Positions 19,114 through 23,545 of a stretch of DNA of 40,510 nt are shown here, in pieces. Below the pieces are notes generated by a model. That model was not told the origin of the DNA. It searched no databases and was given only the letters and a program-made list of their open reading frames with translations. The DNA is taken from contig JARXAF010000081.1 in the NCBI GenBank assembly GCA_029865985.1, positions 1 through 40,510 of the forward strand. Direction: 5' to 3'. This stretch comes from Verrucomicrobiota bacterium (GTDB lineage: Bacteria > Verrucomicrobiota > Verrucomicrobiia > Limisphaerales > UBA9464). Made by a program: the position numbers and the translations under genes. Position 1 is the first letter of the stretch. Each line of letters starts with the position of its first letter.

Positions 19114-19348
19114 CGGCCCTGAGCCTAGGCCAATAGCGTGCGCGGCGGAAGGAAGGTTAGGCCACCCCATCGGTGAATCCTTCATCGGGCGGCAGGCTTC
19201 GGATTGGTCGGTCGAGGCAGCGTCGAATCGGAGCGAGGGGGCTGATGCGATTCAGTGGAGTGTCTCTGGAATCGTTCCTATGGTTTTCCAAGTTGGGAGC
19301 CTTGCAGGGTTTCCCACCGATACTTCAACCGTTCATCCATCGTTTATC

Positions 19349-19744
19349 ATGGGACTCCTCAGCAACCTGCTCGGCAACGCGTCCGAGGTCGACATCGCCA
19401 AGATCCAGGCCGAACTCGAACCGGTGCTCGTGCCCGGCGAGACCATCGGCCGCGGTTTCAAGGTGTTCCGCGACCTGTTCATCTTCACCGACCACCGGCT
19501 CATCCTGATCGACCGGCAGGGGATCACCGGCTCGAAGGTGAGTTATCACAGTGTGCTCTATCGGAACATCACCCAGTTCAGCGTGGAGACCGCCGGGTCG
19601 TTCGACGCCGATTCCGAACTCAAGATTTGGGTGTCGGGGGGCGGCCTCCCGATCACCAAGGAATTCAAGCGCGGCACCGACGTGGTGGGCATTCAAAAGT
19701 ATCTGGCCTACTGCGTGTTCGGCGGTGCCATCGAGCAGCGTTGA
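19349..19744 (+). CDS. PH-domain (bacterial bPH/DUF1696-like) protein
   Basis: This is a 131-residue cytoplasmic protein. Recognisable elements are a conserved start MGLLSNLLGNASE, a strand pattern FIFTDHRLILIDRQGI, VSYHSVLYRNITQFSVETAG and a C-terminal helix ending in IQKYLAYC. This matches the bacterial PH-like domain family (YvbH type), whose function is unknown and is presumably protein or lipid binding. It has no signal peptide. It lies 235 bp from the divergent rlmN gene and is followed by one copy of a dispersed repeat. Confidence 0.82.
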   Translation: MGLLSNLLGNASEVDIAKIQAELEPVLVPGETIGRGFKVFRDLFIFTDHRLILIDRQGITGSKVSYHSVLYRNITQFSVETAGSFDADSELKIWVSGGGLPITKEFKRGTDVVGIQKYLAYCVFGGAIEQR

Positions 19745-19999: not shown

Positions 20000-20248
20000 A
20001 TGCGAATCCCGGGCGACGATACGGATCGGCCGTGGCGGAAATCCCGCCTCGCGGCGCGCATTCTGTTTCGCAAGGAGGCCGGCCGCATGACGGCCCGTGA
20101 CCAGCGCATCGGTCGACGGCTCGCCCAAGATCCGGAAGTCACCAACCGCTTGATCCAACAGGGGATCTATTCCATCCGATATCAGGGACGCCGCATTGGA
20201 GACCGCAAACATGAGTTCGACCAAAACCTGGGACTGGTGGCGCGGTGA
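20000..20248 (+). CDS. Small basic protein, first gene of a two-gene unit
   Basis: The 82-residue frame starts at ATG 20000 (MRIPGDD) and ends in LGLVAR. It is rich in Arg, Gln and Asp and has no signal or membrane helix. A second start is at least as likely: ATG 20087 (MTARDQR) has a strong AAGGAGG Shine-Dalgarno eight bases upstream and would give a 53-residue protein. The stop overlaps the downstream nucleotidyltransferase-like gene by 38 bp, so the two are surely cotranscribed. I recognise no family. A small antitoxin or regulator partner is an inference from the gene order alone. Confidence 0.6.
   Translation: MRIPGDDTDRPWRKSRLAARILFRKEAGRMTARDQRIGRRLAQDPEVTNRLIQQGIYSIRYQGRRIGDRKHEFDQNLGLVAR
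20072..20078 (+). promoter_or_regulatory. Strong Shine-Dalgarno for the 20087 start
   Basis: AAGGAGG lies eight bases before ATG 20087 in the frame of the small basic protein. Most other starts in this window lack such a motif, which favours initiation here over ATG 20000, where no purine-rich site is seen. Confidence 0.5.
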
Positions 20249-20915
20249 CGTGGATTGGAGCACGCCGGCCGGGCGGTTGCTTCGCGCTTTCTTCGACGGA
20301 CTGCCGACCGACCGGAAGTTCCACTTCATTCTGTTTGGCTCCGCACCGCTCCAACTCACGCTGAACCGCACATGGACCAGTGCGGATGTGAATTTTTTTT
20401 CCGACGATGACGAAGACTATCACGAGCGAATCCGACGCTTCGGTCTCGGCAAAGGGCAGGCCGACTTGTACCTGGAACCCGGCTACCGCCTCAGCTTTCG
20501 AACCACTCCGTTGATGGCCGAGCGGGCGAAGATCGTATCTTTGGGCCAGGTCACGGTGACTATCCCGCACCCTCTCGACATCCTGATCGCCAAATTGGCT
20601 CGCCTCGATGCCAAGGACCTCCTGGCCTTTCGGCGAGTCATCGACCTGACCGGGCACCCCACCCGAGAAGAACTCCTGCAGGAATTGACGAACGCCGTGG
20701 ATCTGTTCCGGCCGGCGTTCGACGACGAGTCTCCCAACTTGTATCCCGGCAATGCGGTGCGTCTGTGGCGTGAACTCTGGCAAGCACCTCTGGATGTCGG
20801 ACAGGACATCGTGGCCCCGGCCTTGGCCCGCCGTCGCGCCGGGTATGGGGATCCGCCCCCGGACTACCGGCGGTCCTTGGTCGACGGACTGGGGACTTCG
20901 GAGCCTCGAAGTTGA
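20211..20915 (+). CDS. Nucleotidyltransferase-like protein (DUF6036/AbiEii-like)
   Basis: This is a 234-residue cytoplasmic protein. The region LFGSAPLQLTL...SADVNFFS (about 41-64) resembles the hG[GS]...DhD core of DNA polymerase-beta-type nucleotidyltransferases. Here the acidic pair is Asp59-Val-Asn61, so the second carboxylate is replaced. Later IPHPLDILIAKLARLDAKDLLAFRRVIDL resembles the C-terminal helices of the DUF6036/AbiEii group, whose members include toxin-antitoxin and phage-defence enzymes. The assignment is by pattern and therefore moderate. ATG 20211 has a GGAG nine bases upstream. It overlaps the small upstream gene, so the two form an operon. Confidence 0.6.
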   Translation: MSSTKTWDWWRGDVDWSTPAGRLLRAFFDGLPTDRKFHFILFGSAPLQLTLNRTWTSADVNFFSDDDEDYHERIRRFGLGKGQADLYLEPGYRLSFRTTPLMAERAKIVSLGQVTVTIPHPLDILIAKLARLDAKDLLAFRRVIDLTGHPTREELLQELTNAVDLFRPAFDDESPNLYPGNAVRLWRELWQAPLDVGQDIVAPALARRRAGYGDPPPDYRRSLVDGLGTSEPRS

Positions 20916-21138
20916 GGCCGCGTCGGGAACCTGTTGTGATGGAAGCAAGCGGGTAGCCGGAATGCCGGCTCAATTCAGCGCATCCATTTCCGCTCCAGCG
21001 GCTGCGCCGGATGGGGGGGACGGTCGGGTCGATGATCTGCCTTCGGGCTTGGCAAGTGACCACGTCTACGTCTGCGTTCGAACGTCGTTTTCCAGCTTGT
21101 CTTCAACGACCTTGATCTTGCTGGTAGCCAAGGGCTCA

Positions 21139-21631: not shown

Positions 21632-23545
21632 ATGACCGATCTCTTTGTCACTTTCTTGAACGCCGCGGGCCAGACCGCGGTCGTGGCCGGACTCCGCATG
21701 ACACTCCAGGCCACCGCGCTGACGGCCCTGATGCTGGCGCTCGACCGGGCGTTGCGGGATCGCGCCCGGGCCGCCCTCCGCTGTGGGCTCTGGATGCTGG
21801 TGGTGGTGAAGTTCCTGTTGCCCACCGACCTCCTCTCTCCCACCGCGTTGGCCTATTGGATCGTACCCCAGGTGGTCTCACCCATCCGTGCCCTCGGATC
21901 GGTGGATCAGGTCGATGGGGGCAGGGCCATCGGCAGCGAGGTCCCCGATCCGGTGCCTGCCGCGACGACCGATTTCAGACCCACTCCCCCGCAGCTCCGG
22001 TGGACCGGCGGGCTGCTGCTGGTCTGGGTGGGCGGGTCGATGGGCTTCGGGCTTTGGGCATGGGCCCGGGGTCGAGCAGTGGCCCAACGGCTGCGGGCGT
22101 CGACCGAGGCCCCGGAGGCCGTGCGGGCGATGCTGGCCGAGACCGCGGCCGACCTGGGATTGCACGGGCCCTTGCCCCGGGTGCTCCTCACCGACACGCA
22201 GCAGGGTCCTGCCCTGTGTGGGCTGTTGCGGCCGGTCATCCTGTTGCCCCGAGGGCTCATCGAGCAGCTCGATTCTCAGGCGCTCCCGCTGGTGTTGCGG
22301 CATGAGTTGATCCACCTCGCACGGCGGGACCTCGGGTGGAACCTGCTCCAGGTCTGCGTCCAGATCGTGTGGTGGTGGCATCCGTTGGTGTGGTTCGCCA
22401 ACGCCCGCGTCCGGGCCTTGCGCGAGGCGGCGGTTGATGAAGCCGTGATGCTGGAGCCGGGCTCCGACGAGTACCCCGCCACGCTGGTCGCCGTGGCCCG
22501 GACGTGTGTGATCCCGTCACGAATGCCCATGGCCTTCCTGGGCATTCTGGAATCCGGCGGCCGGCTCGAGGCCCGGATCCGACGCCTGGTGGAACGGCCG
22601 CTGCCTCGCAGTGCCCGCTTGGGCTGGGTCGGCTGGGTGACCGTGCTGATGGCCGGTGCGTTGTTCCTGCCGATGGGCTTCGCTCGGCGTGTCGAGACCC
22701 CGGCTTTGGCCGCGCTGGCGGCGAAGGCACCGACGGATCCGAAAACGCTCCCGGCGGGTGGTTCGACGGCGAGTTTGAAACCCATCCCGGCCGCCGCCGC
22801 GGAATTAAACTCCGCCTCCAAGGTTGAGCCGGCTGCGCCGGACAGCCTGCGGGCCGCCGCCAGTTCCGTCGTCCCAGCCATCGATGCGCCTTTGCAAGTT
22901 GATATCCAAGGGCGATTCGTCGAGATCCGCGGCTCCCTGCCTCCGGAGTTGGTTGGCGTGCTTTCCTCGAACCGTAGTTCCGTCCGGCTTACGGCGACGG
23001 CAACCCGTGACTTGATCAAGGTCTTCAATGAACGCGATGGGATCGATTTCCTGACCGCACCGCGTGTGATGACTTTGGCGAACCGTGCGGCGGAAATCTC
23101 AGTGTCGGATGTCCGAGCGATCGACGGCAAGAACGCGGGCCCAACCCTCCAGGTCATTCCCGACGTGTCGAACCCGGCCATCGAGCTCTCCGTCTTTGCG
23201 TCCATGGTGCAAGTTCTTGGAGATGGGTCCGATTCGAACGGAGCCTCCGAAACCTTGGTCCGAACCAACCTCGTCTGGGCCAGGGAGCGGAGCTGGATCT
23301 GGGACGGACAGAGTGTGCTCATCGATGTGGGAGCGCTTACCCACCGGGTGCGGTTCGTCGACAAGACGGTCTATTTGGGAGACCTCCCGCTCATCGGCGG
23401 GTTCTTCCGCAAGGAGGAGACTCAAGACCAGGTGAGTCGACTGTTCGTCCTGGTGACCCCGACGCTCATCGACGCCACCGGCCGCCCCATCCACGATCCG
23501 GCGCATCCGCCCTTCGATCCTGCGACGTTCCCGCCGAAGCCCTAA
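21632..23545 (+). CDS. M56 (BlaR1-like) membrane metallopeptidase with C-terminal secretin-like domain
   Basis: This is a 637-residue protein. Hydrophobic segments lie at about 10-38, 48-66, 125-145 and 330-350. The zinc motif HELIH is at 224-228, followed by WWWHPLVWF and REAAVDEAV, typical of BlaR1/MecR1 proteases. After a Pro/Ala linker (about 360-415), residues 420-615 carry elements of the secretin (GspD/PilQ) domain: a LTAPRVMTL segment (about 474-482), LQVIPDVSNP, a WDGQSVLI strand and the terminal GDLPLIGGFFR...VLVTPTLID. Classical BlaR1 carries a penicillin-binding sensor at this end instead. The sensing input may therefore be something other than beta-lactam. Which face of the membrane the C-terminus occupies is not determined. 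Confidence 0.85.
   Translation: MTDLFVTFLNAAGQTAVVAGLRMTLQATALTALMLALDRALRDRARAALRCGLWMLVVVKFLLPTDLLSPTALAYWIVPQVVSPIRALGSVDQVDGGRAIGSEVPDPVPAATTDFRPTPPQLRWTGGLLLVWVGGSMGFGLWAWARGRAVAQRLRASTEAPEAVRAMLAETAADLGLHGPLPRVLLTDTQQGPALCGLLRPVILLPRGLIEQLDSQALPLVLRHELIHLARRDLGWNLLQVCVQIVWWWHPLVWFANARVRALREAAVDEAVMLEPGSDEYPATLVAVARTCVIPSRMPMAFLGILESGGRLEARIRRLVERPLPRSARLGWVGWVTVLMAGALFLPMGFARRVETPALAALAAKAPTDPKTLPAGGSTASLKPIPAAAAELNSASKVEPAAPDSLRAAASSVVPAIDAPLQVDIQGRFVEIRGSLPPELVGVLSSNRSSVRLTATATRDLIKVFNERDGIDFLTAPRVMTLANRAAEISVSDVRAIDGKNAGPTLQVIPDVSNPAIELSVFASMVQVLGDGSDSNGASETLVRTNLVWARERSWIWDGQSVLIDVGALTHRVRFVDKTVYLGDLPLIGGFFRKEETQDQVSRLFVLVTPTLIDATGRPIHDPAHPPFDPATFPPKP

Follow-up and report, generated by a model that had tools for sequence, protein, structure and literature searches.

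A near-obligatory gene pair in Limisphaerales: a small basic protein and a divergent DUF6036 nucleotidyltransferase as a candidate toxin-antitoxin module

Introduction

Two overlapping genes in a verrucomicrobial contig raise the question of what a small basic protein and a nucleotidyltransferase-like protein do together, and of whether the latter, with FGS...DVN in its catalytic core, still works as an enzyme. The DNA analysed here (the window) is 40,510 bases long and is one whole contig (C81) of a 3.6-Mb assembly. A first-pass annotation had seen in this pair a possible toxin-antitoxin or phage-defence module with a degenerate enzyme of changed or lost mechanism.

Results

The gene pair and its surroundings

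Both genes lie on the forward strand. The small gene (20000..20248) encodes an 82-residue basic protein, a putative antitoxin with a core at about residues 9-54, and is supported by its open reading frame, by order-wide homologues beside the enzyme gene and by purifying selection. The second gene (20211..20915, with its ATG at 20211) encodes a 234-residue DUF6036-like nucleotidyltransferase, a putative toxin whose allele in the window is probably inactive, as judged from reading frame, homologues, fold and motifs. The frames share 38 bp (20211..20248; 38, 56 or 32 bp in relatives), and a Shine-Dalgarno-like GGAGA (20198..20202), found in close relatives too, lies within the small gene 8 nt 5' of the enzyme ATG, where it may serve translation of the enzyme. 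In the window protein, which reads FGSAPLQL...SADVN, motif I (Gly43-Ser44) is encoded at 20337..20342 and motif II (Asp59-Val60-Asn61) at 20385..20393, with the Asn codon AAT at 20391-20393; a stretch resembling motifs III and IV, HPxDxLxxKxxRLxxKD (residues 120-136), follows at 20568..20618. The two reading frames, their overlap and the FGS...DVN string are all present as first described. A programmed frameshift fusing both frames was considered and dropped, as the enzyme start codon is conserved within the overlap.

The neighbours of the pair are a TonB-dependent receptor, a radical SAM protein on the reverse strand, a 140-residue ORF and then a BlaI-type repressor with an M56 peptidase. The radical SAM gene, assigned by Pfam to Radical_SAM, is what we call RlmN-like. 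The 140-residue ORF (19321-19744) has no Pfam match; it adjoins the RlmN-like gene also in L011 and L152, and tblastn found none in other relatives of the window site. The M56 (BlaR1-type) protein behind the BlaI-type repressor (21632-23542) matches the Secretin family over residues 472-613, to our knowledge an unusual domain combination.

Strictness and distribution of the pairing

The small gene and the enzyme gene form a genuine, near-obligatory unit. In 293 genomes of the order, the small gene lies directly upstream of 52 of the 53 full-length enzyme genes (uninterrupted by stop codons and matching 190 model positions or more; the other 29 entries are fragments), at match distances of -43 to +94 bases, and the one unpaired gene starts at base 131 of its contig. 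To the question whether the small gene always accompanies the enzyme gene, the answer is that no full-length homologue is demonstrably without it. Of 33 distinct full-length loci, one is cut and the other 32 have overlaps of 38, 56 or 32 bp; in one of the 52 pairs (L205) the small gene matches model positions 5-40 only and abuts the enzyme frame. The arrangement is that of a closely linked two-gene unit with the small partner first, as in toxin-antitoxin modules. At one locus (L202, 262-851, G085:C65) a tandem pair of small genes stands ahead of a single enzyme gene.

In the family of the window genome, the enzyme is found in 24 of 50 genomes and the small gene in 27; order-wide, the counts are 51 and 62 of 293, with up to four places per genome. 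A phylum-wide draw of 387 genomes held the enzyme in two only, the window's own genome and one from another family of the same class (L102), where a relative of the small gene (33 bits) overlaps the enzyme gene. No relative of the enzyme was found by tblastn against phages and plasmids, nor of either protein among the 14 and 15 pattern matches that the two alignments gave in viral contigs.

Family and fold of the enzyme

The enzyme most probably belongs to DUF6036, as a divergent nucleotidyltransferase of that family. The window protein stays below the Pfam cut-offs (DUF2204 E 0.033; DUF6036 E 0.069), with 13.4 bits against a PF19502 gathering score of 23.6 bits. Among 33 family members, DUF6036 (PF19502) is matched at E<=0.1 by 29 (best 1.3e-8) and DUF2204 by 16, and the PF19502 gathering score is exceeded by L102 (24.0 bits), G017:C73 (24.4) and G032:C52 (24.4). 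Searched against PADLOC, neither protein of the window pair matched a model, and one of the 33 enzymes did so (AbiEii, E 0.027). The suggested label of a DUF6036/AbiEii-like enzyme is supported by the Pfam matches of relatives and by the fold; the window's own two proteins yielded neither a Pfam match above cut-off nor a defence model. PDB sequence searches returned nothing better than E 0.33. A Pfam match to EAD2 in 2 of the 33 members (best 0.024) was rejected as chance.

An AlphaFold2 model of the window enzyme (pLDDT 82) had MenT1, H. pylori JHP933, TglT/MenT3 and MenT4 as its top Foldseek matches (best E 5.9e-3). In the VIA comparison, rows 1-15 are nucleotidyltransferases throughout, followed in row 16 by an AbiEi antitoxin (Z 6.1). 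ANT(2'')-Ia leads this list with Z 8.0 (3.4 A over 141), and Z is 7.5 for MenT1 (4.7 A over 162), 6.9 for MenT4 (5.3 A over 180) and 6.6 for TM1012 (4.2 A over 127); Z values of 7-8 are moderate, and by the tool's own scale may mean only a common arrangement. The predicted fold is, at these moderate scores, that of a polymerase-beta-type nucleotidyltransferase, nearest to MenT and ANT enzymes, and no alternative fold, named beforehand as evidence against the assignment, appeared.

The family carries hG[G/S]x(n)DhD, with a spacing of 14 between Gly-Ser and DhD, of which the window copy lacks the second Asp. In 56 distinct full-length enzymes (those identical over the first 120 residues being merged), Ser44, Gln48, Ser57, Phe96, Arg105, Asp123, Leu125, Lys128, Arg131, Lys135, Asp136, Ala139, Phe140, Leu159, Asn181 and Trp186 are invariant. 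A C-terminal region, GHPT...VDxxRPxF...LW, is conserved in the family as well.

The small partner protein

The small protein has 70-82 residues and, in line with its description as Arg-rich, a predicted pI of 9.9-12.0 in 29 of 29 relatives (the alignment holds 29 of the 32 small proteins listed). Helices are predicted at residues 10-26, 32-42 and 49-62, and a poorly predicted one at 67-80 (mean pLDDT 78); the core reads roughly DRxWRKSRxAARxLxRxExGxxxxRDxRLAxxLAxDxxVTxRLIxQA. No credible family was found in Pfam, PADLOC, NCBIfam or PDB, the fold search reached at best a Foldseek E of 6.6 and a Z of 4.2, and six proteins gave a single PHROGs match (E 0.081). These family and fold searches returned no known antitoxin resembling the small protein. 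Four scattered matches deserve mention: an NCBIfam sigma factor (matched by 6 of 29 with a best E of 0.0024; the window protein scores 17.3 bits, far from the cut-off of 331), an NCBIfam dUTPase (4 of 29, best 0.026; window 13.8 against 130) and Pfam DUF5825 (4 of 29, best 0.041) were set aside as chance, and PADLOC PDC-M16B was weakly matched by 2 of 29 (best 0.0053).

Asn61 and other losses of catalytic residues

The first-pass annotation had called the protein with FGS...DVN degenerate and had asked whether Asn61 is conserved in homologues. The homologues refute a degenerate, Asn-bearing family, as the DxD is kept: among the 56 full-length enzymes Ser44 is present in 56, Gly43 in 53, Asp59 in 54 and Asp61 in 53; at position 61, the window has Asn, L189 has Gly and L194 has Ala instead. 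Within this set, Asn61 occurs in the window genome alone, and its codon may be an assembly error. Position 59 has changed from Asp to Asn in L200 and to Gly in L029, and position 43 from Gly to Ser in L004 and L005, probably in a single event, and to Cys in L006. In total, Gly43, Asp59 or Asp61 is missing from 8 of the 56 copies, and Asp123, Lys128, Arg131, Lys135 and Asp136 are lost in none. Motif I/II and motif III/IV columns differ in this respect, with 8 losses in 168 versus 0 in 280 (P = 0.0004, or 0.001 with the shared Ser43 counted once), in a test whose columns were picked after seeing the data and which ignores relatedness.

Broken copies of the enzyme gene show the same kind of loss more often. 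Twelve incomplete pieces cover motif II, and exclusion of the window's own piece cut by the locus end (L131) and of L033 leaves 10; Asp59 or Asp61 is lost in seven of these (L212, L137/L009, L216, L221, L215, L028 and L213) versus 5 of the 56 full-length copies (P = 0.0001, relatedness ignored), while L010, L040 and L034 keep both. L215 has Asn61, as in the window. Since motif II is lost so frequently in broken copies, loss at the metal site travels with decay.

In AbiEii, G49A, D67A, D69A, D67E and D69E each abolish toxicity (PMC3985639), and in MenT1 the same is reported for D41A (the first Asp), K137A and D152A, the second Asp not being among these mutants in the available portion of the source (PMC10435456). 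By analogy, the most economical reading of Asn61 is a loss of function, not new chemistry, and the enzyme copy of the window is probably inactive. A degenerate family with a changed mechanism finds no support, Asn61 being one private loss among several at catalytic positions.

Selection on both genes

Both frames are conserved across species beyond chance, and the rates of change indicate purifying selection on both genes between species. Outside the overlap, the small gene has a dN/dS of about 0.02-0.13 between window and relatives, and of 0.24 versus L011, where the enzyme gene is deleted; relatives with an identical small gene give no value. For the large gene, dN/dS is about 0.08-0.13 (0.13 versus L008). 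Underlying values are, for example, dN 0.006 and dS 0.35 for the small gene versus L009, and dN 0.063 and dS 0.79 for the enzyme versus L002. Because of this purifying selection, the enzyme gene is not simply junk. Codon changes in the enzyme number 6 nonsynonymous and 11 synonymous on the window branch, compared with 2 and 6 on that of L008, and 2 more are unresolved; these counts carry no clear sign of relaxation or adaptation.

The small gene is identical (0 of 249 bases differ) in the window (20000-20248), L007 (2884-3132) and L008 (765-1013). The enzyme gene of the window differs there by about 4% (28 of 667 bases versus L008, 24 of 607 aligned bases versus L007). Identical small genes beside diverged enzyme genes possibly reflect recent recombination.

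Breakage and history of the site

Within the window's genus, the window genome and G034 (L008/L156) have a full-length pair at the site between the RlmN-like and BlaI-type genes. Elsewhere the unit is broken in various ways: the enzyme has a 59-bp frame-shifting deletion in G028 (L007) and a 588-bp in-frame deletion in G021 (L011), and in G029 (L009, 4944-6542) a deletion has joined the M56 gene in frame to codons 1-133 of the enzyme. G019, G031 and G023 have a common deletion with the same ends, equivalent to window positions 20150-20989, which takes out the enzyme together with the small gene's end. The whole unit is missing from the site in G027, which is nearest to the window at these genes (96-98% DNA identity).

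A second site, judged by common flanks, carries full-length copies in G021 (L006), G023 (L005), G024 (L004), G028 (L002) and G031 (L003), and in all four of these five genomes in which the first site was found, the first site is broken. The two sites together hold seven full-length genes, and a motif I or II residue is missing from four of them (those of the window, L004, L005 and L006); the genus has one more full-length gene (L027 in G026), a distant copy whose motifs are intact. A short remnant of the enzyme gene, 43 bp from around codons 31-43, is found in L002 (7991-8033) and L003 (9353-9395), 2.3-3.7 kb past the full-length copy and near the point where the downstream flank common with L006 resumes.

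Of 24 broken loci listed, two lack a locus sequence and one (L033) is cut by a contig end; in the remaining 21 the small-gene core is intact in 15 and decayed in 6. Order-wide (293 genomes), 17 of 93 small-gene places have no enzyme match nearby, and a closer reading of six such lone small genes (L222-L227) showed enzyme remnants beside two and a contig end at one. Loci that have lost the enzyme but keep the small-gene core are frequent, and together with the lone small genes they fit the roles of toxin and antitoxin. Damage hits the small gene only at one locus versus the enzyme gene only at 15, a difference with P = 0.054 after adjustment for length (0.042 including L033) in a test that takes related genomes as independent; as strong proof this asymmetry was dropped. 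We read the pattern of breakage as repeated silencing of the toxin of a module.

Discussion

We think it fairly probable that the pair is a toxin-antitoxin module resembling MenAT and AbiE, and that the window copy is a silenced toxin beside an intact antitoxin gene. According to this model, the upstream gene would give a small basic helical antitoxin, made first, and the overlapping downstream gene a nucleotidyltransferase of a DUF6036 branch which, when free and active, would add a nucleotide to RNA and stop growth. Its RNA target would most likely be the 3' end of tRNA, by analogy with MenT1 and MenT3, and the small protein would block the enzyme by binding to it. In the window genome, replacement of the second metal-binding aspartate by Asn would have silenced the toxin with the antitoxin gene kept intact. 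Toxicity, neutralisation, the tRNA target and loss of activity by D61N are thus predictions, and phage defence is a possible role. In MenAT1, a small helical antitoxin accompanies a toxin that adds nucleotides to tRNA (PMC10435456, PMC11375011), and its antitoxin MenA1 is described, in the available part of the source, as a 68-residue helical protein with no evident DNA-binding domain (PMC10435456). According to the same source, E. coli is not poisoned by MenT1. What stands of the originally proposed toxin-antitoxin reading is the near-obligatory pairing and the nucleotidyltransferase family and fold; the degenerate motif as a family feature does not.

The pair might instead comprise a housekeeping or regulatory nucleotidyltransferase, acting on RNA, a protein or a small molecule, with a small subunit, the two being dispensable and hence often lost. 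The chromosomal setting beside RlmN-like and BlaI/M56 genes, the purifying selection on both genes, the place of ANT(2'')-Ia as top VIA row and the loss asymmetry that is non-significant once length is allowed for are all compatible with such a role. However, a patchy distribution (51 of 293 genomes), up to four places per genome, frequent breakage and catalytic losses suit a gene of conflict better than a metabolic one, and we regard this explanation as possible but rather doubtful. Reversed roles, with the small protein as toxin and the nucleotidyltransferase as an antitoxin that modifies it, would follow the HEPN/MNT (type VII) modules, in which MNT antitoxins are nucleotidyltransferases in two-gene modules (PMC7641770, PMC11586414); MNT chains do occur far down the fold lists (8xeh_E, E 2.2 in Foldseek; 8xeo_B, Z 3.4 in VIA). 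Yet these lists place the enzyme closer to MenT and ANT, and the small protein, at 70-82 residues, has no HEPN match in Pfam. R-x(4-6)-H can be read in 21 of its 29 aligned rows, but there is no conserved His column (best 18 of 29), and small genes often persist beside a broken enzyme gene, which is unexpected for a toxin; reversed roles therefore seem quite unlikely.

As to the window allele itself, a working enzyme with altered chemistry would accord with an otherwise intact protein with unchanged motif III/IV residues and a dN/dS of 0.13 versus L008. Nevertheless, Asn61 is a private change, position 61 has become Gly or Ala in other full-length copies and Asp59 or Gly43 is missing from still others, seven of ten broken copies have lost Asp59 or Asp61, one of them with the same Asn, AbiEii toxicity is abolished even by Asp-to-Glu (PMC3985639), and the branch codon changes (6 nonsynonymous and 11 synonymous in the window, 2 and 6 in L008) give no clear sign of relaxation or of adaptation, so that altered chemistry appears very improbable indeed. 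Full-length copies without Gly43, Asp59 or Asp61 keep every motif III/IV residue and may therefore be retained as catalytically dead proteins. One may speculate that inactivation is selected specifically at the metal site and that dead copies, still binding nucleotide or the small partner, serve as decoy, anti-addiction module or repressor, the small protein then being a new antitoxin family; we consider this bolder version unlikely.

The toxin-antitoxin reading, which we prefer, makes the pair a compact, strictly paired and experimentally tractable example of DUF6036, a family of which open-licence PubMed Central literature yielded no mention, and would allow a direct test of the enzyme's role and target. 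The sister species carry natural alleles for this purpose, some active-looking and some probably inactive.

Among known systems, MenAT1 of M. tuberculosis (Rv0078B-Rv0078A) is similar in that a small helical partner of 68 residues is encoded with a nucleotidyltransferase toxin, and MenT1 is the best Foldseek match to the window enzyme, with a Z of 7.5 in VIA. It differs in that identity in the fold alignment is about 14%, that sequence and fold searches detected no similarity of the small proteins, and that toxicity and an RNA target, reported for MenAT1, are predicted for the pair here. The HEPN/MNT type VII modules are likewise two-gene units including a nucleotidyltransferase; here, by contrast, the partner has no HEPN match, the Pfam search and the 29 small proteins reveal no HEPN partner with a conserved R-x(4-6)-H, and the enzyme is nearer to MenT and ANT in the fold lists.

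With AbiE (AbiEi-AbiEii, DUF1814), the pair shares a bicistronic order with the antitoxin gene first and overlapping genes (4 nt in S. agalactiae; PMC3985639). As the available text of that source has it, AbiEii also has hG[G/S]x(n)DhD with a long spacing (x15 in AbiEii, x14 here, classically 9-13), and a Lys/Arg motif III-like stretch is present in both (PMC3985639). In contrast, AbiEi has two domains and contains a winged helix-turn-helix (PMC3985639), while the partner here has 70-82 residues and four predicted helices, and its best Pfam match (E 0.041) points to no AbiEi-type antitoxin upstream of the enzyme. Moreover, the motif II Arg described for AbiEii (PMC3985639) is not conserved before Asp59 here, and in place of the second Asp of the motif IV +DxxD there is an invariant Ala139, in KDxxAF; the enzyme family thus lacks both the motif II Arg and the +DxxD of AbiEii/MenT (DUF1814) proteins.

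A further comparison is with DUF6036 (PF19502) itself, of which the enzyme and its relatives form a divergent branch, marked by their conserved C-terminal region. Within the taxonomic family of the window genome, short ORFs precede several further DUF6036 genes as well; most of these ORFs overlap the gene that follows, and by eye they fall into about four recurring types (L158, L165, L167; L168, L174; L171, L179; L159, L160, L164, L166). Of 19 such loci viewed by eye, at least six are without one. The small partner described here differs, by eye, from these ORFs, which are possibly further partner families. Their lack of mutual relatedness would echo the diversity of MenA antitoxins (PMC11375011, PMC10435456). 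The small protein is a probable new antitoxin family, which the pair would add to the nucleotidyltransferase modules, where antitoxins are already diverse.
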